DNA of 64,000 bases from Brachybacterium epidermidis (GTDB lineage Bacteria; Actinomycetota; Actinomycetes; Actinomycetales; Dermabacteraceae): the NCBI RefSeq assembly GCF_015209585.1, contig NZ_JADEYR010000002.1:62001-126000 (forward strand), given 5' to 3'. A program made the position numbers and the translations under genes. Below, in pieces: positions 44,527 to 57,549 of this stretch. The stretch's first letter is position 1. Each line of letters starts with the position of its first letter. The notes under the pieces were generated by a model that had not been told where the DNA came from, searched no databases, and saw nothing but the letters and a program-made list of their open reading frames with translations.

Positions 44527-45651
44527 TCAGATCCGCATCGGCATGATCAGGTACTTGTACGAGCTGCTGGGGCTGCCCTCGAGAGACTCCTGGCCGGCCA
44601 TGACGGAGGGCTTGATGGAGTCGGTGAAGGTGAGCCGCGCGAACTCGGTGCCCAGGGCGCTCAGACCGTCCAGCAGGAAGCCGGAGTTGTATCCGACCAC
44701 CAGGTCCTCGCCGTCCAGCTGCGCCTCGAGCACCTCACTGGCCTGGGCGTCGTCACCGGCGCCGGCCTCCAGAGCCACCTGACCCTCGGTGAAGGAGAGC
44801 CGCACGGGAGTGTTGCGCTCGGCCACCAGGGACACGCGCTTGACCGCGTCGATGAGCGGCCCGGTGGCGACCACGGCGGTGATCGGGGTGGAGTCGGGGA
44901 ACAGGCGGCGCACGGGCGGGTAGTCGCCGTCGACCAGGGTGGAGGTGGTGCGGCGGCCGCCGGCCTCGAAGCCGATCAGGTTCGCCGAACCCTCCTGGGA
45001 CAGGGCGATGTCGACCCTGCCCCCGGTTGCCAGGGAACGGGCCACCTCGTGCAGGGTGCGGGCGCGCACCAGGGCGGTCAGCTCGGTGCCGGGACTGGCC
45101 GGGTTCCAGGTGAGCTCGCGCATCGCCAGCCGGTAGCGGTCGGTGGACATCAGCGTCATGGTCTCGCCGGAGATCTCGATCTTCACGCCGGTGAGCAGGG
45201 GGAGGGTGTCGTCCTTGGAGGCGGCCACGGTCACCTGGGAGATCGCCTCGGCGAACACGTCGGCCGGGACGGATCCGGCCACGGGCGGCATGGCCGGCAG
45301 CTGTGGGTACTCCTCGACCGGCAGGGTGGCCAGGGCGAAGCGAGCGCTGCCGCAGCGGACCTGGAGCTTGGTCCCCTCGAGGGCGACGGTGACGTCCTTG
45401 TTGGGCAGGGCCCTCACGATGTCCGAGAGCATCCGGCCCTGCACCAGCACCTCGCCGGGCTGGTCCACCTCGGCGTCGATGGTGATCTGCGCGCTGACCT
45501 CGTAGTCGAAGGTGGACAGCTGCAGCTCACCGCCGGCGTCGGCCACGATCCGCACACCCTGCAGGATGGGCATCGCCGGTCGCACGGGGAGGGTGCGGGT
45601 GGCCCAGGAGACGGCGTCGCCCAGAACGCCGCGGTCGAGGTGGAACTTCAC
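44527..45651 (-). CDS. dnaN: DNA polymerase III sliding clamp (beta subunit)
   Basis: The 374-residue processivity clamp with three repeated clamp domains (starting MKFHLDRGVLGDAVSWATRT) and the usual C-terminus YLIMPMRI. The GTG at 45651 is chosen because AAGGAG lies 9 nt upstream; the longer frame runs into the dnaA-dnaN spacer. It follows dnaA with a 406-bp spacer containing DnaA boxes and precedes recF closely. Confidence 0.96.
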   Translation of the reverse strand: MKFHLDRGVLGDAVSWATRTLPVRPAMPILQGVRIVADAGGELQLSTFDYEVSAQITIDAEVDQPGEVLVQGRMLSDIVRALPNKDVTVALEGTKLQVRCGSARFALATLPVEEYPQLPAMPPVAGSVPADVFAEAISQVTVAASKDDTLPLLTGVKIEISGETMTLMSTDRYRLAMRELTWNPASPGTELTALVRARTLHEVARSLATGGRVDIALSQEGSANLIGFEAGGRRTTSTLVDGDYPPVRRLFPDSTPITAVVATGPLIDAVKRVSLVAERNTPVRLSFTEGQVALEAGAGDDAQASEVLEAQLDGEDLVVGYNSGFLLDGLSALGTEFARLTFTDSIKPSVMAGQESLEGSPSSSYKYLIMPMRI

Positions 45652-46057
45652 CGTTGCCACTCCTTCGGAAGGGTCGTCATTCACGATCGGGACCCAGCGT
45701 ATCCGCTCCGTGACCCTTCCGCCGACACACCGGCTGAGATCCTTGACTTCCCTGGTGCCCGCCCCCGGCGCCCCATCCACATCCCCGTCGAGCACATAAC
45801 TGCAGTCCTCTTCATCACGGCTGTGGATTCCGTGGACAACCACCGTCCTCGCAGGTCATCACCGATGAGCGACAGATGGACGGAGTGTGAATCACACGCG
45901 TTCCGGCGTGGTCGGACTGTGCAGGACGAAGCCCTCACAGCCGATTCCTGTGATTCCGCCATGCACACCATCTCCTGCATGGATGCCAATCCGTCCACAC
46001 CATCCACAGAGTTGTCCACATTGGGGAGGAGCAGGGCCCTCTCCCGCGTGTGATCCC
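45652..46057. promoter_or_regulatory. dnaA-dnaN spacer with DnaA boxes (origin candidate)
   Basis: A perfect box TTGTCCACA lies at 46012-46020, preceded by near matches at 46000-46008 (CCATCCACA) and 45991-45999 (CCGTCCACA) in the same direction. Two more lie in the other direction at 45831-45839 (TTGTCCACG) and 45822-45830. The spacer also serves as the dnaN promoter region. Few boxes for a complete oriC, but the position is the classical one. No protein gene is seen. Confidence 0.6.
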
Positions 46058-47752
46058 TCAGTGCCGGGAGCTGGAATTGGAGCTCTTGATCCGTGCCGTC
46101 AGCTCCGTGACCTGGTTGAAGATCGCGCGGCGCTCCTTCATCAGCTCGCTGATCTTCTTGTTGGCGTGCATCACGGTAGTGTGGTCGCGGCCGCCGAACT
46201 CCTCGCCGATGCGGATCAGCGGCATGTCGGTCAGCTCACGGCACAGGTACATCGCGATCTGCCGGGCCGAGACCAGGCGCCGCGAGCGCCCAGTGCCGAT
46301 GATCTCCTCGACCGAAAGACCGAAGTAAGTGGCCGTCTGCGCGATGATCGTGGAGGCGGTGATCTGGGTGCCGTCGTCGTGGCTGAGCAGGTCCTTCAGC
46401 ACGCTCTGGGCGAGTGTGACGTCCATCGGCTGCCGGGACAGGGAGTGCAGCGCCTGGACCCGGATCAGTGCGCCCTCGAGCTCGCGGATGTTGGTGGCGA
46501 TGTGGCTGGCGATGTACTCCAGCACGTCGTGGGGCACCTCGCCGGTGTTCTCCTGGGCCACCTTCTTGCGCAGGATCGCGATGCGGGTCTCCAGATCCGG
46601 AGGCTGGACGTCGGTCATCAGGCCCATCTCGAAGCGCGAGCGCATGCGGTCCTCGAAGCCTCCCAGCTCCTTGGGGGGAAGGTCCGAGGTGATCACGATC
46701 TGCTTGTCCGAGTTGTACAGCGTGTTGAAGGTGTGGAAGAACGCCTCCATCGTCTCCGGTGCGCGCTGAAGGAACTGGATGTCGTCGATCAGCAGGATGT
46801 CTATGTCGCGGTAGCGGCGCTGGAACTCCTGGGCCTTGCCGAACTGGCCGGACTGCACGGAGTTGATGAAGTCGTTGGTGAACTCCTCGGAGTTCACGTA
46901 CCGCACCACGATCTCCGGGTACAGGCTCTGGGCGTAGTGGCCCACGGCGTGCAGGAGGTGGGTCTTGCCCAGGCCGGAGCCGCCGTAGATGAACAGCGGG
47001 TTGTATGCCTTGGCGGGGGTCTCGGCCACGGCCGAGCAGGCTGCCTGCGCGAAACGGTTCGAGGAGCCGATCACGAAGGTGTCGAAGGTGTACTTGCCGT
47101 TCAGGCGCGAATCGCCCACCAGCGTGGTCTCGGCGAGCGGGGCCCGCGGTGCCGGCGCCGGGGAATCCGCGGTGGGAGGGGACCACAGGGATCGGCTACC
47201 GGCAGGGGAGGTGCTGCTAATGGGCCGGGCCGAGTTCGGGCCCCACTGGGCCGGCGGGGTCGAGGAGTGCGCGGCGGTGGCCGACGGGGCGATGCTGCCT
47301 GTGCCACCTGCGGTCCCTGACCGGTCACCGCTGCCTGCACGGGTGAATCCACCGTCGGAGGGGCCGATGTGGACATCCTCCGCAGAACCATCCACAGAGT
47401 TGTCCACAGAGTGTGCACCGGCGCTGGTGGGACGGGAGATCACCGCACCGGCGGGGGCGGGATCCTCGTCGTCCCCCTCCAGCAGCAGGGACTCGTCCAC
47501 GGTCACCGCGAAGCGCATCTCGCGCTGGGCGGCCTCGCTGAGCGCACTCTTGAGGGAGTCCACGATCCGGTGCTCGAACAGCTCCTTCGCAGAGGTGGAG
47601 GGGGCTGCCAGCAGGGCGGTGTCCGCCACCACGGCCATCAGTCGGGACAGGGTGAGCAGGGCCATCACCCGGGGGGACACGGTCTCGTCACGGCGCAGGA
47701 TCTGAAGGGTGCGGTCCCAGATCACCTCGACGTCGATCCGCGTGTCATTCAT
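46058..47752 (-). CDS. dnaA: Chromosomal replication initiator DnaA
   Basis: A 564-residue AAA+ initiator. Domain I spans about residues 1-95, domain II is a long Ser/Gly/Pro-rich linker (about 100-240), domain III has Walker [15 protein letters not shown] and Walker [12 protein letters not shown], and domain IV ends with the DnaA signature [15 protein letters not shown]. The ATG at 47752 is preferred over 47758 because GGAG then sits 6 nt upstream. The domain II coding region contains a DnaA double box. Confidence 0.97.
47388..47408 (+). promoter_or_regulatory. DnaA double box inside dnaA
   Basis: CCATCCACA (47388-47396) and TTGTCCACA (47400-47408) are separated by 3 bp. The same 21-bp arrangement, with identical spacer, occurs in the dnaA-dnaN spacer at 46000-46020. 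It may allow DnaA to act on its own gene. Confidence 0.5.
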
Positions 47753-48184
47753 GATCATCTCCGGTGGAAGGCAGCAGTCCAGGTAGTTTTCCACATGATC
47801 CACAATCGTGTGGATCGCTGGTGTGGATGTGTGGGGCGTCGGGTGGCCGCACCTGGTCGGGGCGGGCGGTTCCCGGGATGTGCGTCCCCTCACCGCCGTC
47901 CGCTACCGCCGTGGAGACGCCCGTGGGCATACGGCGCGCAGTGAGAAACCGGCCACACCGGCGCTCACCTGCGCCTCAGCCGTTGACCCCTCGACGCCCC
48001 GCCCCTAGGATCGTGCAGTCAGCGCTGCGAGCCGACCTGTAGACGTCACCGGGACGTCGTCCTGGTCGGTCCGGTCACCCGGCAGCCGCTCCGTCATCCG
48101 CGCGAGCGCCCGATCAGCCCGTCCGCGCAGCAGACCACATGCCACCGCGAGGGGCACGTCCGTGCCCATGATCGAGGAGAACCG
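47753..48184. promoter_or_regulatory. dnaA-rpmH spacer with a cluster of DnaA-box-like sites
   Basis: Four DnaA-box-like 9-mers lie within 44 bp: TTTTCCACA (47787-47795), TGATCCACA (47796-47804), and on the other strand CGATCCACA (47809-47817) and ACATCCACA (47822-47830). They lie just upstream of dnaA and could autoregulate it or contribute to origin function. The rpmH promoter is on the right side. No protein gene is seen. Confidence 0.55.
47983..48011 (+). promoter_or_regulatory. rpmH: rpmH operon promoter
   Basis: TTGACC (47983-47988), a 17-bp spacer and TAGGAT (48006-48011) form a good housekeeping promoter. The 5' untranslated region before rpmH would be about 165 nt. Confidence 0.65.
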
Positions 48185-51018: not shown

Positions 51019-51711
51019 ATGGCCCCCTCCTCCACCGTTCCCGAGCAGCTGCGCGGCCCGGCCGAGCGGCTCTTCGGCGACCGTCTCGACCTGGCCGAGC
51101 GCTTCACCGGGATGCTCGCCGAGCAGGGCCCCGAGCGGGGTCTCATCGGTCCGCGCGAGGTGGATCGGCTGTGGGAGCGGCACGTCCTGAACTGCGCCCT
51201 GCTGGCCGACGCGATCGACGAGGTGGGCGCGACTGACCGGCCCGTCGGCACCCTGGCCGACGTCGGCTCCGGTGCAGGACTGCCGGGCATCGTGATCGCG
51301 ATCGCGCGGCCCGGGCTGCGCGTCACCCTGATCGAGACCATGCAGCGTCGCACCACCTGGCTCGACGAGGTGAACGCGGAACTGGGCCTGGGCATCGAGG
51401 TGGTGCGCGCCCGTGCCGAGGAGCTGCACGGCGAGCGTGACTTCGATCTGGTCACCGCGCGCGCCGTGGCCGCGCTGGACAAACTGGCCAAGTGGACCCT
51501 GCCCCTGGTGACCGCGGGCGGCACGCTGCTGGCCATGAAGGGCGGCTCCGCGGCGGAGGAGATCGACAAGGCCGCCCCGGTGCTGCGCCGTCTGGGCGGG
51601 ACCGATGCCCGCATCGAGCGGTACGGGGACGGCGAGGTGGAGGTTCCCACTACAGTGGTCCACGTGCTCCGCACCCCCCAGGCGACCAGGAAGGGAGGCC
51701 GACGTGGCTGA
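51019..51711 (+). CDS. rsmG: 16S rRNA (guanine-N7) methyltransferase RsmG
   Basis: A 230-residue SAM-dependent methyltransferase modifying 16S rRNA G527. Conserved blocks are GLIGPREVDRLWERHVLNC, the SAM motif ADVGSGAGLPGIVIAI and VTARAVAALDKLAKW. Start at an ATG 8 bp after jag. The end overlaps the parA start by 8 bp. Loss-of-function changes in this gene give low-level streptomycin resistance in other bacteria; none is seen here. Confidence 0.94.
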   Translation: MAPSSTVPEQLRGPAERLFGDRLDLAERFTGMLAEQGPERGLIGPREVDRLWERHVLNCALLADAIDEVGATDRPVGTLADVGSGAGLPGIVIAIARPGLRVTLIETMQRRTTWLDEVNAELGLGIEVVRARAEELHGERDFDLVTARAVAALDKLAKWTLPLVTAGGTLLAMKGGSAAEEIDKAAPVLRRLGGTDARIERYGDGEVEVPTTVVHVLRTPQATRKGGRRG

Positions 51712-52627
51712 TCAGCGCGAGGACTCCGCGCCCGCAGGCGGCGGTCTGGACGACACTCCGCTGATGCGCGAACTGGCCCGTGACCATGCTCGACGCCGCG
51801 AGCTGGAAGGGCTCGAGTTCGCTGCTCCGGAGGCCACCCGTGTGATCACGGTGGCCAACCAGAAGGGCGGGGTGGGCAAGACCTCCACCACCGTGAACGT
51901 GGCGGCCGCCCTGGCCATGGGTGGGCTGGACGTGCTGGTGGTGGACGTGGACCCGCAGGGCAATGCCTCCACGGCCCTGGGCATCGACCACCACGCGGAC
52001 GTGCCCAGCATGTACGAGGTGCTGGTGGAGTCCACCCCCATGCAAGAGGTGATCCAGCCGGTCCCCGAGATGGAGGGGCTGCTGTGCGCGCCCGCGACCA
52101 TCAACCTCTCCGGTGCCGAGATCGAGCTGGTCTCGATGGTGGCCCGGGAGAACCGGCTGCGCGGCGCCATCCGCGATCTGCTGGCCGAGCGCGAATCGGC
52201 CGGCCTCCCGCGCCTGGACTACGTGCTGGTGGACTGCCCGCCCTCCCTGGGCCTGCTGACCGTGAACGCCCTGGTCGCGGCCCGAGAGGTGCTGATCCCG
52301 ATCCAGGCCGAGTACTACGCGCTCGAGGGCCTCACCCTGCTGCTGAACAACATCGAGCTGCTGCGCCAGCACCTGAACCCGGAGCTGGTGGTCTCCTCGA
52401 TCCTGCTGACGATGTACGACGCCCGTACCAGACTGGCCGCCCAGGTGGCCCAGGACGTGCGCGACCACTTCCCGGAGCAGACCTTCTCCACCACCATCCC
52501 GCGCTCGGTCCGGATCTCCGAGGCCCCCAGCTACGGGCAGACGGTCCTGACCTACGACCCGGGGTCGAGCGGCGCCCTCGCGTACCGCGCCGCAGCCCAC
52601 GAACTCACCATTCGCCCAGCCCCCTGA
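51704..52627 (+). CDS. parA: Chromosome partitioning ATPase ParA
   Basis: A 307-residue deviant Walker ATPase that moves ParB-parS complexes. Motifs are the deviant Walker A NQKGGVGKTSTT, VVDVDPQGNASTALG and YVLVDCPPSLGLLT. The GTG at 51704, with AAGGGAGG 5 nt upstream, is chosen over the longer upstream frame. It overlaps rsmG by 8 bp and is followed by parB after 86 bp. Confidence 0.95.
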   Translation: MADQREDSAPAGGGLDDTPLMRELARDHARRRELEGLEFAAPEATRVITVANQKGGVGKTSTTVNVAAALAMGGLDVLVVDVDPQGNASTALGIDHHADVPSMYEVLVESTPMQEVIQPVPEMEGLLCAPATINLSGAEIELVSMVARENRLRGAIRDLLAERESAGLPRLDYVLVDCPPSLGLLTVNALVAAREVLIPIQAEYYALEGLTLLLNNIELLRQHLNPELVVSSILLTMYDARTRLAAQVAQDVRDHFPEQTFSTTIPRSVRISEAPSYGQTVLTYDPGSSGALAYRAAAHELTIRPAP

Positions 52628-52713: not shown

Positions 52714-54495
52714 ATGACGCAGAAGCGCGGACTCGGTCGAGGCCTCGGCGCACTGATCCCGGGCGCCGGCACCGCACCTGCACCCGGCCAGGATCTGCGC
52801 ACCCGTTCGCACCCGCGCACCTCGCCGGAGGCCGGGGAGAAGGGCTCCTCGACCAGGCCGGTGGACATGTTCTTCTCCGGTGAACCGGTGCACTCGGACT
52901 CCGACCGGCCCCAGCGCGAACGCGCAGCCAAGCAGGATCTCGCCGGAGACATGGCGCGCGCCGCCGCGGAGCGCCGCGGGCGCGGCGCCGGAGGTACGGC
53001 GACCAGCAGGAGCACCTCGTCACCCGCGCGAAGGACCCGCACCGCGAAATCCTCCCCCGCGGGCGCATCCGCTGGGTCAGGTGCCACCGAGTCCGAGTCC
53101 TCCAAGGACGGATCCTCGAGGCAGGGAACCGCCACGAAGAGTGCGTCGAAGGCGGGGACGTCGAAAGGGGGGGCATCGAAGGCGGGGACCTCCAAGGCCG
53201 GTGCATCGAAGTCCCGCCGTGACACCACGTCCACTGCTGGACAGAAGGGCACCTCCTCGTCCCGGGCCACGACGTCCACCACGACGAAGCCCGGTCGTTC
53301 CACCTCCCCCAAGCCCGCCGATCCCGCAGGCACGCAGCAGGCGCCCGCTGCAGAAGCGCCCTCGGAGGAGACTCCTGCAGTGGCGAGCCCCTCCGCTGCG
53401 ACCGAACCTGCGCAGTCCGGCTCCGCCGATGCCGCACCGGTCGAGGCTTCTGCACCGGTCGCTCCCTCCCCGATCGCTGCCGCGCCGGTGGAGGAGGATT
53501 CCACCGTGTCCGAGACTCCTGGCGAGAGCCCCGCGGTCGACGTCGAGGAGGTCCAGAGCACCCCGGTGTCCGTGCCGCGGGACACGAGCTCGGTGACCGA
53601 GACCGCGGAGCCCGATACCGCATCCAAGGACGATGAGGACGCGGACCTGGTGCCCGTGCCGGGCGCGGAGTTCGCCGAGGTCCCGATCCATGAGATCCGC
53701 GAGAACCCGCGCAACCCCCGCACCATGTTCGACGAGGATGAGCTCGACGAGCTCGCCGAGTCGCTCCAGCAGGTCGGTGTGCTGCAGCCCGTGGTGGTGC
53801 GGCCGATCTCCGTCACGGAGGATGGTGAGTCCTTCGAGCTGGTCATGGGCGAGCGCCGTTGGCGTGCAGCTCGGCGTGCCGGCCTTGATCGGATCCCGGC
53901 GATCATCCGTGAGACCAGGGACGACGACCTCCTGCGCGATGCGCTGCTGGAGAATCTGCACCGATCCCAGCTGAACCCGCTGGAGGAAGCGGCTGCATAT
54001 CAGCAGCTGCTGGAGGACTTCGGCTGCACCCAGGAGGAGCTGGCTGAGCGGATCGGCCGGTCGCGCCCTCAGATCACCAACACTCTTCGCCTGATGCGCT
54101 TGCCCGCTCTTGTGCAGCGACGACTCGCCAGCGGAGCGATCAGCGCTGGCCACGCACGAGCTCTCCTCTCCCTGGATGACCCGTCCCTGATGGAGGAGCT
54201 CGCCCAGCGCATCGTGCAGGAGGGCCTCTCGGTGCGTGCGGTGGAACGCCTGGTGACCCGCGGTGCACAGCCCACGGTCACTCGGACCCCGCGACGCAGC
54301 ACCTACGATCCCCACGTCGTGGACATCACCAGCCGGCTCTCCAATCGTCTGGAGGCTCCCGTTCGCATCGACGTGGGCAAGCGCAAGGGAAAGATCACGC
54401 TGGAGTTCTCCAACATCGAGGATCTCGAGCGTCTGGTGGAACGCATCGGGCTGGAGCTGCCGGCCCAGTTCCACGGGAACGACCAGCGGGTCTGA
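52714..54495 (+). CDS. parB: Chromosome partitioning CTPase ParB with very long disordered linker
   Basis: A 593-residue ParB, far longer than the usual 300-350. The ParA-stimulating N-terminus RGLGRGLGALIPG is followed by about 290 residues of Ser/Thr/Ala/Lys/Pro-rich low-complexity sequence with short SKAGTSK-type repeats. The normal core starts near residue 310: AEVPIHEIRENPRNPR, QVGVLQPVVVRP, the CTP-binding box GERRWRAARRAG, the helix-turn-helix (ELAERIGRSRPQITNTLRLM) and the C-terminal dimer domain. It presumably binds the parS-like sites just downstream. Confidence 0.95.
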   Translation: MTQKRGLGRGLGALIPGAGTAPAPGQDLRTRSHPRTSPEAGEKGSSTRPVDMFFSGEPVHSDSDRPQRERAAKQDLAGDMARAAAERRGRGAGGTATSRSTSSPARRTRTAKSSPAGASAGSGATESESSKDGSSRQGTATKSASKAGTSKGGASKAGTSKAGASKSRRDTTSTAGQKGTSSSRATTSTTTKPGRSTSPKPADPAGTQQAPAAEAPSEETPAVASPSAATEPAQSGSADAAPVEASAPVAPSPIAAAPVEEDSTVSETPGESPAVDVEEVQSTPVSVPRDTSSVTETAEPDTASKDDEDADLVPVPGAEFAEVPIHEIRENPRNPRTMFDEDELDELAESLQQVGVLQPVVVRPISVTEDGESFELVMGERRWRAARRAGLDRIPAIIRETRDDDLLRDALLENLHRSQLNPLEEAAAYQQLLEDFGCTQEELAERIGRSRPQITNTLRLMRLPALVQRRLASGAISAGHARALLSLDDPSLMEELAQRIVQEGLSVRAVERLVTRGAQPTVTRTPRRSTYDPHVVDITSRLSNRLEAPVRIDVGKRKGKITLEFSNIEDLERLVERIGLELPAQFHGNDQRV

Positions 54496-54900: not shown

Positions 54901-56416
54901 GTTCCACGTGAATCAGGGTTAGCGTGAGGCTGGGCGCTACTGCGGGAACGGTTTCACGTGGATCATCGCTCGTCATCTCCTCGCGCGGGCTCGCCAAGTC
55001 GTCACGCGGCTTGCTTGCGGGCGGCTACGCGGACGACGCAGAGGTTCCACGGGAAACGTCAGATTTCGTGTAACGGCGAAGTAAGTGCGTGCGACTCGTA
55101 CAGCGCCGTATAGATTTGCCGTGTAGAAAGCGGTGCGCCCCGTGGACGAGGGACATCCGGAGAATTACAACCGCGGGGCCTCTCCTCGCCCCGCAAGGGG
55201 CCGACACCATGTTTCACGTGTAACCCGTGTTGCCGGGCATTCGAGTTGATTCCCCGTGACTGGGGCTGCACCGCATGACGCGTTGCATGTGGAACGCGGA
55301 CGGGCTGCCAGGTCAAGCGGGATTGATCCGGCCAGCACTCGTCAGGCGCACAGCCGAGGCCGCTGGGCTCACTTGCGGGGTGGGATCGTGCGGGCTCTCC
55401 CGAGGTCGAGGGCCGGAGCCATCCCGCGCACGGGGTGGCCCGGGGCGGCCGCCACGAACCTGGCTACGAGCCGCGCATGAGATTCACGTGAAACGCAACG
55501 ATGAAACACAACTTGCCATCTCCCCGTCGGCGGCGTTGTCAGCTGTAACGGCACGATGCTCTAGTTTCCCGTGAAACAGCCGCACAGTCCGGGCCGTGGT
55601 GGATGGAGCGTGCGGAGCAAGGTGTCTTTGATGTGCGGCCGCGGATGGACGCCTCTCATTACGGTAGCCCCGAGCGTCGCGCGTCCTCCTAGCGGCACAC
55701 CCCGCCTGCCGGAGCCAGTGCTATGCGCAGCGGGGCCAGGTAGGCCGAAGCTCACCGCGGTCCACGCAACGTGCCGGGCAGTTTCACGTGAAGCTACCAA
55801 AAAGGGTGCTATCGGCGATGCTTGGATCCCGTTCCCATCTGGACGCACGGCGTCACCACCCAGCACGTGAGCTGGTTGCACGTGAAACTCTCACCCGCGG
55901 TTCATGCGGGCAGCGATACGGTCGCGTCAAGAGAAGCGGCAATAATCGGACGGATCCAGTGTGGCGCCGAGCTCTTGGGGCGTTCCATGTGAAACGGAGT
56001 TCTCGCAGTACCGAGACTGCGGCGCCGAGTGGGCTTCGGTTGTGCGGAGAACTCGCCTAGCGTCGCGCCTGGTAGCCGATCCACAATGACAGCGTCGTCT
56101 AGGGAGCACAGAGGTCACTCGATCGATCACGACGATGGGCGCCGTATGTTCCATGTGAAACGACGGCCTTGCCGAGCGAAGCATCCCGTTTCACATGGAA
56201 CACAACCTCTGACCGCCAGGTGATGGCTGCTGGGCGGTGCAGGCCACACCGTCACGACTCAATTCACGGGGGGCTGTTCAATTAGGAACCCTCCAGTGGG
56301 TCTACCCGTTCGCCGTGAAACCGGCAGAATCGTTCGGACAGAGCACCCCACCGCGGGCTTCGCCGACAGAGGACCCTCTACTATCCGGCCGCAGACGGCG
56401 GCGTTTCACGCGGAAC
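54901..56416. other. Cluster of 13 parS-like sites
   Basis: Thirteen 14-mers match the palindrome GTTTCACGTGAAAC (known ParB target) with one to three differences. Starts: 54901, 54951, 55044, 55211, 55282, 55481, 55564, 55781, 55875, 55982, 56148, 56188, 56403. Five have a single difference (55211, 55481, 55564, 55781, 55875). Sites 55982 and 56148 are identical (GTTCCATGTGAAAC) and 56188 is the same in inverse. More degenerate copies occur near 56308 and 56551. Spacing is irregular, 40-217 bp. Next to parB, this should be the chromosome's centromere-like loading zone. Confidence 0.85.
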
Positions 56417-56624
56417 ATAGAGCTGCCCACAGCTGCATGAGGCCGCCGTTGATGAATGACCGGGCGGGCTGCAGCGACGCGAGCGCCCGCCAGCGCACCG
56501 GCGAAGTCGACAGCAATCATCACTGGGAACAGCCAGCGGAGCGGTACAGCCATGTTCCTCGTGGAGCCGGGCCATGAGGGAGGAGGGCCACTCAATCCGC
56601 GACTTTGCACACTGTGAGTAGGTG

Positions 56625-56835
56625 TGTGGACAATCCCCCTCGGTCGATCTTTGTTCCGGACCAGGCTGTGCACGCCAGGCCCAGGCCCCTTACCCTGGGT
56701 GGCCTGCGGGAATGAGCAAAACTGCAGGTCAGACGCTACTTTGTACACGTGAGTAGAGATGATTCACGACCTCGACCTTGTCCACATTTTCCTGTGGATG
56801 ACCTTGTGGACTGATGTGCCGCTGTGTGTGGACAA
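56625..56835. promoter_or_regulatory. DnaA-box group beside the parS-like cluster
   Basis: Three perfect TTGTCCACA boxes lie at 56625-56633 (minus), 56778-56786 (plus) and 56827-56835 (minus), with near matches TCATCCACA at 56793-56801 and CAGTCCACA at 56805-56813 (minus). This is a denser set of perfect boxes than in the dnaA-dnaN spacer. It could be part of the origin, a DnaA-titration site or a trxA-region regulator. Confidence 0.6.
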
Positions 56836-56906
56836 CTGTGTGCACACCATGGTGCACGGCGAGTTCGTGCATGTCAGCGGTAGGAGTACGGGATGACTTG
56901 ACAGGA

Positions 56907-57509
56907 TCAGTCGAGACCCGCATCCACGCTGCCGAACCGCACGTCGACCTCGTGCTTGGGGAGGGCACCGTCGTGACGCTTGGTGATGGACCACTCCCCG
57001 CGAAGTCGCACCGGCGTGCCATCCGGAAAGGCACCGCGCAGGTCGGCGATGAGCGGGTGAGGTGGGTCTGCGTCCGCAGGTACGCCGGACCCGGCGGGCA
57101 CGCTGTGCTCCTTGCCGACGCGCAGTGGAGTCCTTGGCGACACGGGGGTAGAGCCGGGCCCCGGTGCGGCAACGGTTCCCGGCGCCAGTCGCAGCCAGAC
57201 CGGAAGCACGTCGATCACCAGCTGATCGAGCACCTCATCGGACGGGTCCTCGATCATGACCGCATGCACAGACGGCCCCCACCGTCGGCCCAGCTCACGA
57301 AGCACCGTGGGTGCCGGTCGGCACGGACCGCACCACGATGCGGTCACCAGCACCACGGCAGGACGGTCCCCGCTCAGGTCAGTCGGCTGCTCCGGATCAG
57401 CGAGCAGCTCCAGGTCAGTCGGCTGGTCTGGGTGCACCGGGTGCTCCACGTCAGCCGACCGGTCCTTCCGCGAAGGCCTCCCCGCCCCTGGCATGGAGGG
57501 GCTGCTCAT
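56907..57509 (-). CDS. Thioredoxin-like protein
   Basis: A 200-residue protein whose first half is a thioredoxin domain with the redox pair in VTASWCGPCRPAPTVLRELG. The second half (about 90 residues) is an extension with no recognised fold. It follows trxB after 40 bp, as trxA does in relatives, so it is the likely partner of that reductase. The ATG at 57509 has AAGGAG upstream; ATG 57494 is an alternative. Confidence 0.82.
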   Translation of the reverse strand: MSSPSMPGAGRPSRKDRSADVEHPVHPDQPTDLELLADPEQPTDLSGDRPAVVLVTASWCGPCRPAPTVLRELGRRWGPSVHAVMIEDPSDEVLDQLVIDVLPVWLRLAPGTVAAPGPGSTPVSPRTPLRVGKEHSVPAGSGVPADADPPHPLIADLRGAFPDGTPVRLRGEWSITKRHDGALPKHEVDVRFGSVDAGLD

Positions 57510-57549
57510 GAGAAGGAGCCCAGGTCGGTTCGGATCGGTGCCGCGCCGA

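Follow-up and report, generated by a model that had tools for sequence, protein, structure and literature searches.

ParB is reported to close as a CTP clamp at parS and then to slide away (PMC8494293), and the arrangement of parS sites differs among the best comparable systems. In the proteobacterium Myxococcus xanthus, 22 putative parS sites occupy 3 kb near parAB, and ParB binds the fragment (PMC3899335). This cluster resembles the Brachybacterium array described here in its about equal density and in a consensus, TGTTCCACGTGGAACG, that departs from GTTTCACGTGAAAC; as far as its published description goes, it differs in following a single variant consensus, 4 kb upstream of parA, whereas mixed variants directly follow parB in our case (PMC3899335). 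Caulobacter crescentus provides a precedent for graded sites, clustered near the origin and unequal in affinity, in which one half, GTGAAA, is conserved while the other varies; 5–7 sites are reported, the five strongest within 5 kb (PMC5815017), whereas 14 lie within 1.5 kb here and either half may vary. Corynebacterium glutamicum, likewise an actinobacterium, has ten clustered sites in its origin region and a ParB/SMC hub, but these sites are identical and spread over 35 kb, and degenerate copies are described as not recruiting ParB (PMC7083940); those analyzed here are imperfect and denser. No paper on parS in Brachybacterium was found among the literature matches listed, in a search that took in few subscription papers.

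The window, by which we mean the whole 64-kb stretch of DNA that was analyzed, carries dnaN, dnaA, a YidC-like gene, an R3H gene, gidB, parA and parB around a block that contains the array. The first parS-like site lies 406 bp 3' of parB, with dnaA and dnaN at a distance of 7–11 kb. The genes and sites are as follows.

44527..45843, minus strand: dnaN (longest open reading frame, real start probably internal); Pfam DNA_pol3_beta domains
46058..47893, minus strand: dnaA (longest open reading frame, real start probably internal); Pfam Bac_DnaA, 5.1e-67
51605..52627, plus strand: parA (longest open reading frame, real start maybe internal); Pfam AAA_31, 1.2e-52
52714..54495, plus strand: parB, 593 aa from MTQKRGLGRGLGALIPG; Pfam ParB_N 1.5e-32, HTH_ParB 1.6e-36, ParB_C 2.2e-09; PDB relatives 6sdk and 6t1f
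52774..53655, plus strand: low-complexity ParB linker of about 294 aa, rich in Ala, Ser, Thr and Pro, read from the sequence
53848..53883, plus strand: GERRWRAARRAG in parB, read from the sequence, which we take to be part of the ParB CTP pocket (GERR motif)
54901..54914, plus strand: parS-like GTTCCACGTGAATC, 2 mismatches
54951..54964, plus strand: parS-like GTTTCACGTGGATC, 2 mismatches
55044..55057, plus strand: parS-like GTTCCACGGGAAAC, 2 mismatches
55211..55224, plus strand: parS-like GTTTCACGTGTAAC, 1 mismatch
55282..55295, plus strand: parS-like GTTGCATGTGGAAC, 3 mismatches
55481..55494, plus strand: parS-like GATTCACGTGAAAC, 1 mismatch
55564..55577, plus strand: parS-like GTTTCCCGTGAAAC, 1 mismatch
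55781..55794, plus strand: parS-like GTTTCACGTGAAGC, 1 mismatch
55875..55888, plus strand: parS-like GTTGCACGTGAAAC, 1 mismatch
55982..55995, plus strand: parS-like GTTCCATGTGAAAC, 2 mismatches
56148..56161, plus strand: parS-like GTTCCATGTGAAAC, 2 mismatches
56188..56201, minus strand: parS-like GTTCCATGTGAAAC, 2 mismatches
56308..56321, plus strand: parS-like GTTCGCCGTGAAAC, 3 mismatches
56403..56416, plus strand: parS-like GTTTCACGCGGAAC, 2 mismatches
56907..57512, minus strand: thioredoxin-like gene, convergent with parB; Pfam Thioredoxin, E 0.0056, under the curated cut-off

A search of the window for GTTTCACGTGAAAC with at most three mismatches returned these 14 sites, all inside 54901–56416 with a mean spacing of 116 bp, against a mean of 0.90 and a maximum of 4 in shuffles of the window. 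Five have one mismatch, seven have two and two have three. Across the whole genome (3.07 Mb in 30 contigs, 99.88% complete), all 12 sites with at most two mismatches fall inside the block, as do 14 of the 27 with at most three; the remaining 13 all have three mismatches and look like background, because the GTTTCACGTGAAAC pattern read backwards gives 18 matches on the same genome. The perfect 14-mer has no copy in the 3.07 Mb. Avoidance of a sub-word, such as a restriction site, was rejected as the reason for its absence, CACGTG and 13 of the 14 bases being present in window sites. Of the open reading frames listed in or overlapping the stretch from parB to the thioredoxin-like gene, eight longer ones (85–262 aa) have no Pfam match at E 0.01, and the block has no Rfam match at E 1. 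The original prediction had described a gene-free block with 13 parS-like palindromes, none of them perfect and one variant occurring three times. The block, its lack of genes and the variants (GTTCCATGTGAAAC at 55982, 56148 and 56188) were borne out and the number became 14; the genome-wide count revealed no similar density of such sites elsewhere in the chromosome.

The block beside parB is very probably a chromosomal ParABS centromere, a row of 14 predicted ParB sites. The sites cluster beyond chance, parA and parB as well as dnaA and dnaN are close by, and ParB has CTP, helix-turn-helix and dimerization domains. The compact centromere that had been proposed gains further support from its location beside a gene with ParB_N and HTH domains and from signs of upkeep by selection: all 33 arrays of the genus that could be read whole have 10–17 sites, despite spacers at noise level in 10 of 11 aligned pairs.

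Is there anything unusual about the protein? Its core aligns with the solved structures 6sdk and 6t1f and is 83–89% identical to that of ten named Brachybacterium loci. The recognition helix is common to the genus members and sister genera that were read (the row of genome G031 being left out), except at three positions (S/T, L/M and R/K), and altered ParB specificity was rejected as the reason for imperfect sites, given only these conservative changes. The linker between the N-terminal box and the core is long in all 34 genus members (236–463 aa). The suggestion that linker and array evolved together did not hold up: in 33 arrays, linker length showed no correlation with the number of sites (rho 0.12), the span (rho −0.05) or the gap (rho −0.08); against mean mismatch it gave rho 0.32 (p 0.066), or 0.26 (p 0.15) without G031. 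In locus L126 (genome G023) the parB match is in three pieces, owing to a frameshift or a sequencing error, and the array nonetheless has 17 sites.

ParB was found in 35 of 38 Brachybacterium genomes. One of these, G025, has a distant match only and 9 sites with at most two mismatches, and its array is not among the 34 taken; the three genomes with neither a parB match nor a site of at most two mismatches (G001, G005, G006) are all incomplete assemblies (74–88%). The 33 arrays read whole lie downstream of parB and have a mean of 13.8 sites (variance 3.1). The 34th, from the nearest relative (G032), has 14. That array (L127:344–6144) is split by two inverted copies of an IS21-type element, which lie ahead of site 1 and between sites 6 and 7. 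Sites within 3300 bp of parB number 458, a limit that leaves out a distant site in L104 and another in L125; G032 contributes only 3 of its 14 through the incomplete L094 (the whole array being in L127), and per-array statistics use the other 33. The genomes are related, so these counts are not independent.

Of the 458 sites, 5 are perfect (4 in G031 and 1 in G011), 221 have one mismatch, 197 have two and 35 have three. Changes concentrate at half-site positions 2, 4 and 6 (110, 260 and 267; together 637 of 720), and position 1 is changed 13 times in 916 half-sites. The commonest single change is A>C at position 6, in 84 of the 221 one-mismatch sites; T>C at position 4 occurs 210 times, alone only 16 times. 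A rule by which one half always stays perfect found no support, since two-mismatch sites have both changes in the same half in 90 cases and across halves in 107, near random placement; the weaker half is the left one about as often as the right one (185 vs 161). The more sites a genome has, the weaker they tend to be (rho 0.43, p 0.013, 33 arrays).

Gaps within the genus arrays have a median of 134 bp and a 5–95% range of 54–281 bp. In 29 of 33 arrays the sites are spaced more regularly than random placement would give (p below 0.05), as they are in four of seven comparison arrays outside the genus; for L134 only the dense part was taken, by choice. Helical phasing of the gaps was looked for in the 33 genus arrays and not found. 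End sites are weaker than interior ones (1.95 vs 1.51 mismatches, per-genome Wilcoxon p 9e-6), and the next ring inward is also weaker, by 0.26 mismatches (p 0.006). To this extent the sites are graded in strength, as had been proposed. The strengths of individual sites are not fixed, however, because the close pair L098/L105 has the same sequence at only 3 of its 12 matched sites.

How are the arrays maintained? Spacer identity is at noise (0.42–0.46) in 10 of 11 aligned pairs and 0.76 in the closest, despite parB fourfold sites that are 0.56–0.83 identical in the eight pairs measured. Matched sites are 0.79–0.98 identical, but permuted pairs reach about 0.77–0.85, which only closer pairs exceed, and such identity is weak evidence of conservation because sites are selected for resembling one motif. 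Selection shows more firmly in the number of sites, which stays at 10–17 in every array. Because matched sites change variant, selection appears to keep sites, with no particular variant kept for long. Variant similarity beat permutation (p ≤0.005) in 7 of 291 pairs, six of the seven with ParB cores at least 94% identical; the 291 are those of 528 possible pairs with at least six matched sites, and about 1.5 pairs are expected by chance (400 shuffles, p floor 0.0025). A lasting strength of each site was rejected on this ground, any similarity fading quickly. In L121 and L123, about 890–1160 bp after parB, sites recur in a step of 86–87 bp together with off-diagonal BLAST matches, which suggests growth of these two arrays by tandem duplication.

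Seven comparison arrays outside the genus (G094, G178, G210, G256, G301, G171 and G294), all from Actinomycetales, have 10–18 sites around parB. Four of them (G178, G210, G256 and G171) are about as dense as those of Brachybacterium, with mean gaps of 91–157 bp against 282–626 bp in the other three, and the recognition helix is alike where read. The density had been thought far above the usual few scattered sites; this holds against the general average and fails against the order Actinomycetales and M. xanthus. Density is thus not the novelty, dense parS rows being known elsewhere. What stands out in Brachybacterium is that nearly all sites are imperfect; a conserved cluster of DnaA boxes also adjoins the array. 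The share of perfect sites sets the genus apart: 55 of 96 sites are perfect in the seven comparison loci, from 2 of 17 (G256) to 10 of 10 (G294). A perfect site is present in 235 of 276 genomes of the order sample outside the genus, compared with 2 of 21 within it; with 41 of the 276 having none, its absence is not unique to Brachybacterium. Summed by hand, the 21 Brachybacterium genomes hold 5 perfect and 146 one-mismatch sites, and five other family members 35 and 35. No other of the 297 sampled genomes has as many as G212, with its 27 perfect sites and 36 of at most one mismatch. The root of the genus, and with it whether perfect sites were lost once, was not fixed by a tree of 37 ParB cores (33 from the genus and 4 from sister genera).

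Why are perfect sites so scarce? If positions were independent, 64–158 of the 458 sites would be perfect, but this model also over-predicts three-mismatch sites (55–86 vs 35) and is a poor yardstick. Perfect sites also become rare under a threshold landscape that leaves the first mismatch without cost, because one-mismatch sequences are many. After correction for spacer composition, the weight of one-mismatch relative to perfect sites is 1.5 (0.65–4.7) in the genus and 7.4 (1.3–292) without G031, against 0.02 in the sister genera g23 and g24 and in G301. The contrast with the sister genera is not clean, because G256 is intermediate, with 3 perfect and 15 one-mismatch sites and a weight of about 0.18 by hand estimate; this least favorable case was excluded from the sister-genus weight, two of its contigs (L129 and L130) carrying the same stretch. 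It is clear that the genus has lost the penalty for a first mismatch. A flat plateau leaves the excess of A>C at position 6 unexplained (84 of the 214 single changes that fall on position 2, 4 or 6, against about 29 expected by hand calculation from the composition of the spacers), and active avoidance of perfect sites is possible.

We consider it likely that the block is a chromosomal parS centromere acting as a distributed loading platform of individually sub-optimal sites. Each of the 14 sites, about 116 bp apart, would load CTP-ParB clamps that slide into neighboring DNA, and the array as a whole would give the loading that few perfect sites give elsewhere. We propose that, with the work divided among many sites, a single mismatch in each carries hardly any cost. 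Once the first mismatch was almost free of cost, mutation would have replaced nearly every perfect palindrome, and selection would act against a second mismatch and more strongly against a third, with the least force at the array ends. In this proposal ParB binding, clamp loading and summation over sites are inferred from published ParB biochemistry.

Alternatively, stabilizing selection may hold the sites at intermediate affinity and remove perfect ones, since 14 strong sites in 1.5–2 kb would over-load ParB or SMC, or turn stably bound dimers into roadblocks for sliding clamps. The deficit of perfect sites against the independence model, poor yardstick as that is, would fit such selection, as would the rarity of T>C at position 4 as a sole change. 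Limits on loading exist elsewhere: B. subtilis is reported to avoid Smc collisions by tuned loading (PMC8357415), and in Caulobacter the fitness cost of plasmid-borne parS is described as rising with affinity (PMC5815017). Much depends on G031, without which the flat plateau predicts 7.4 perfect sites where 1 is seen (p 0.005); with all genomes the plateau fits the data (p 0.23), and G031 itself retains its 4 perfect sites in a similar array. Moreover, perfect sites follow one another at about 100 bp in G178 (7 sites) and G171 (10 sites), and strong, dense arrays are therefore tolerated in relatives. Gap length is also unrelated to the strength of the two neighboring sites (rho −0.06, p 0.24). 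On balance we regard selection for intermediate affinity as unlikely.

It is conceivable, too, that the array is decaying, with a few sites still loading ParB and the others relics. Mismatches are indeed the rule among the genus sites, and degenerate sites of C. glutamicum, with at least three mismatches, are reported not to have recruited ParB (PMC7083940). A decaying array is nevertheless hard to reconcile with a site number that has stayed stable while the spacers lost similarity, or with one or two mismatches in 418 of 458 sites and three in only 35, and we judge it very improbable. That another regulator or a Noc-like ParB binds the sites in place of the ParB encoded by parAB is scarcely credible: a Noc-binding site is described as having A at position 1 and C at position 6, and Noc as having Q173 and R201 (PMC7383237), and while A>C at position 6 is the commonest single change, position 1 stays G (in 14 of 14 window sites, and nearly throughout the genus), ParB has R173, T179, R184 and G201 by alignment to 6t1f, the reported parS-type set (PMC7383237), the other ParB-like matches in the genus are distant (31–39% identical), and the array directly follows parB.

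A distributed platform of sub-optimal sites remains our preferred reading of the array itself. Beyond its last site, DnaA boxes with 12-bp direct repeats lie within 56417–56906, before the thioredoxin-like gene, and include the following cluster.

56625..56847, no strand assigned: DnaA-box cluster after the array, with perfect TTGTCCACA at 56625 (−), 56778 (+) and 56827 (−) plus degenerate copies, conserved in the genus

All 33 arrays are followed within 700 bp by 2–8 boxes with at most one mismatch, compared with 0–2 inside the array and 0–3 between parB and the array. The hexamer TGTGGA/TCCACA reaches a density of 9.9 per kb over the 600 bp that follow the array, compared with 4.0 ahead of the array, 0.55 inside it and 0.15 along the coding part of parB, and successive TGTGGA stand 12 bp apart 61 times across the genus arrays. 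Unlike the spacers, the stretch after the array could be aligned in the 12 arrays tried. The sister genera G178, G210, G256 and G094 have boxes after the array too, and loci from elsewhere mostly have 0–3 in 8–14 kb, with 13 scattered over 15.8 kb in L138. Boxes are also present in the dnaN–dnaA gap and upstream of dnaA (21 stretches examined); in the window their density per kb is 12.3 and 7.3 there, vs 10.2 after the array. GC3 skew rests on few genes and is a weak signal, at −0.03, −0.22 and −0.04 in the three called genes between dnaA and parB, −0.18 (+) and −0.09 (−) in the right flank, and −0.10 (+) and −0.14 (−) in the left. Since parB and the thioredoxin-like gene converge on the block, the boxes are not the promoter of either. 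Clustered and regularly spaced as the DnaA boxes of an oriC are, the cluster is possibly a part of oriC. We further speculate that origin and centromere form one 2-kb unit between the parB and thioredoxin-like genes, in which parS sites would be deliberately sub-strength and spaced so that clamps load often and slide freely, the abutting DnaA boxes would be part of the origin or titrate DnaA, and replication start and loading would be coupled in cis; we hold this to be quite unlikely. No report of such an origin beside a parS array was found in a limited literature search.

Taken on its sequence, the locus is a predicted ParABS centromere of the known dense kind, nearly without perfect sites, with a neighboring DnaA-box cluster. 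What is the wider relevance of such a centromere? The Brachybacterium arrays provide a natural experiment on the amount of sequence that a bacterial centromere requires: the genus is nearly without perfect parS, whereas its sister genera, in which the recognition helix is almost the same, retain perfect sites. The arrays open the question of whether a centromere is as strong as its best site or as its many weak sites added together, and with it whether the sites of a dense array have to be weak and what determines the usual gap of 50–280 bp. The adjoining DnaA-box cluster, for its part, raises a testable question about the replication start site in the family Dermabacteraceae.
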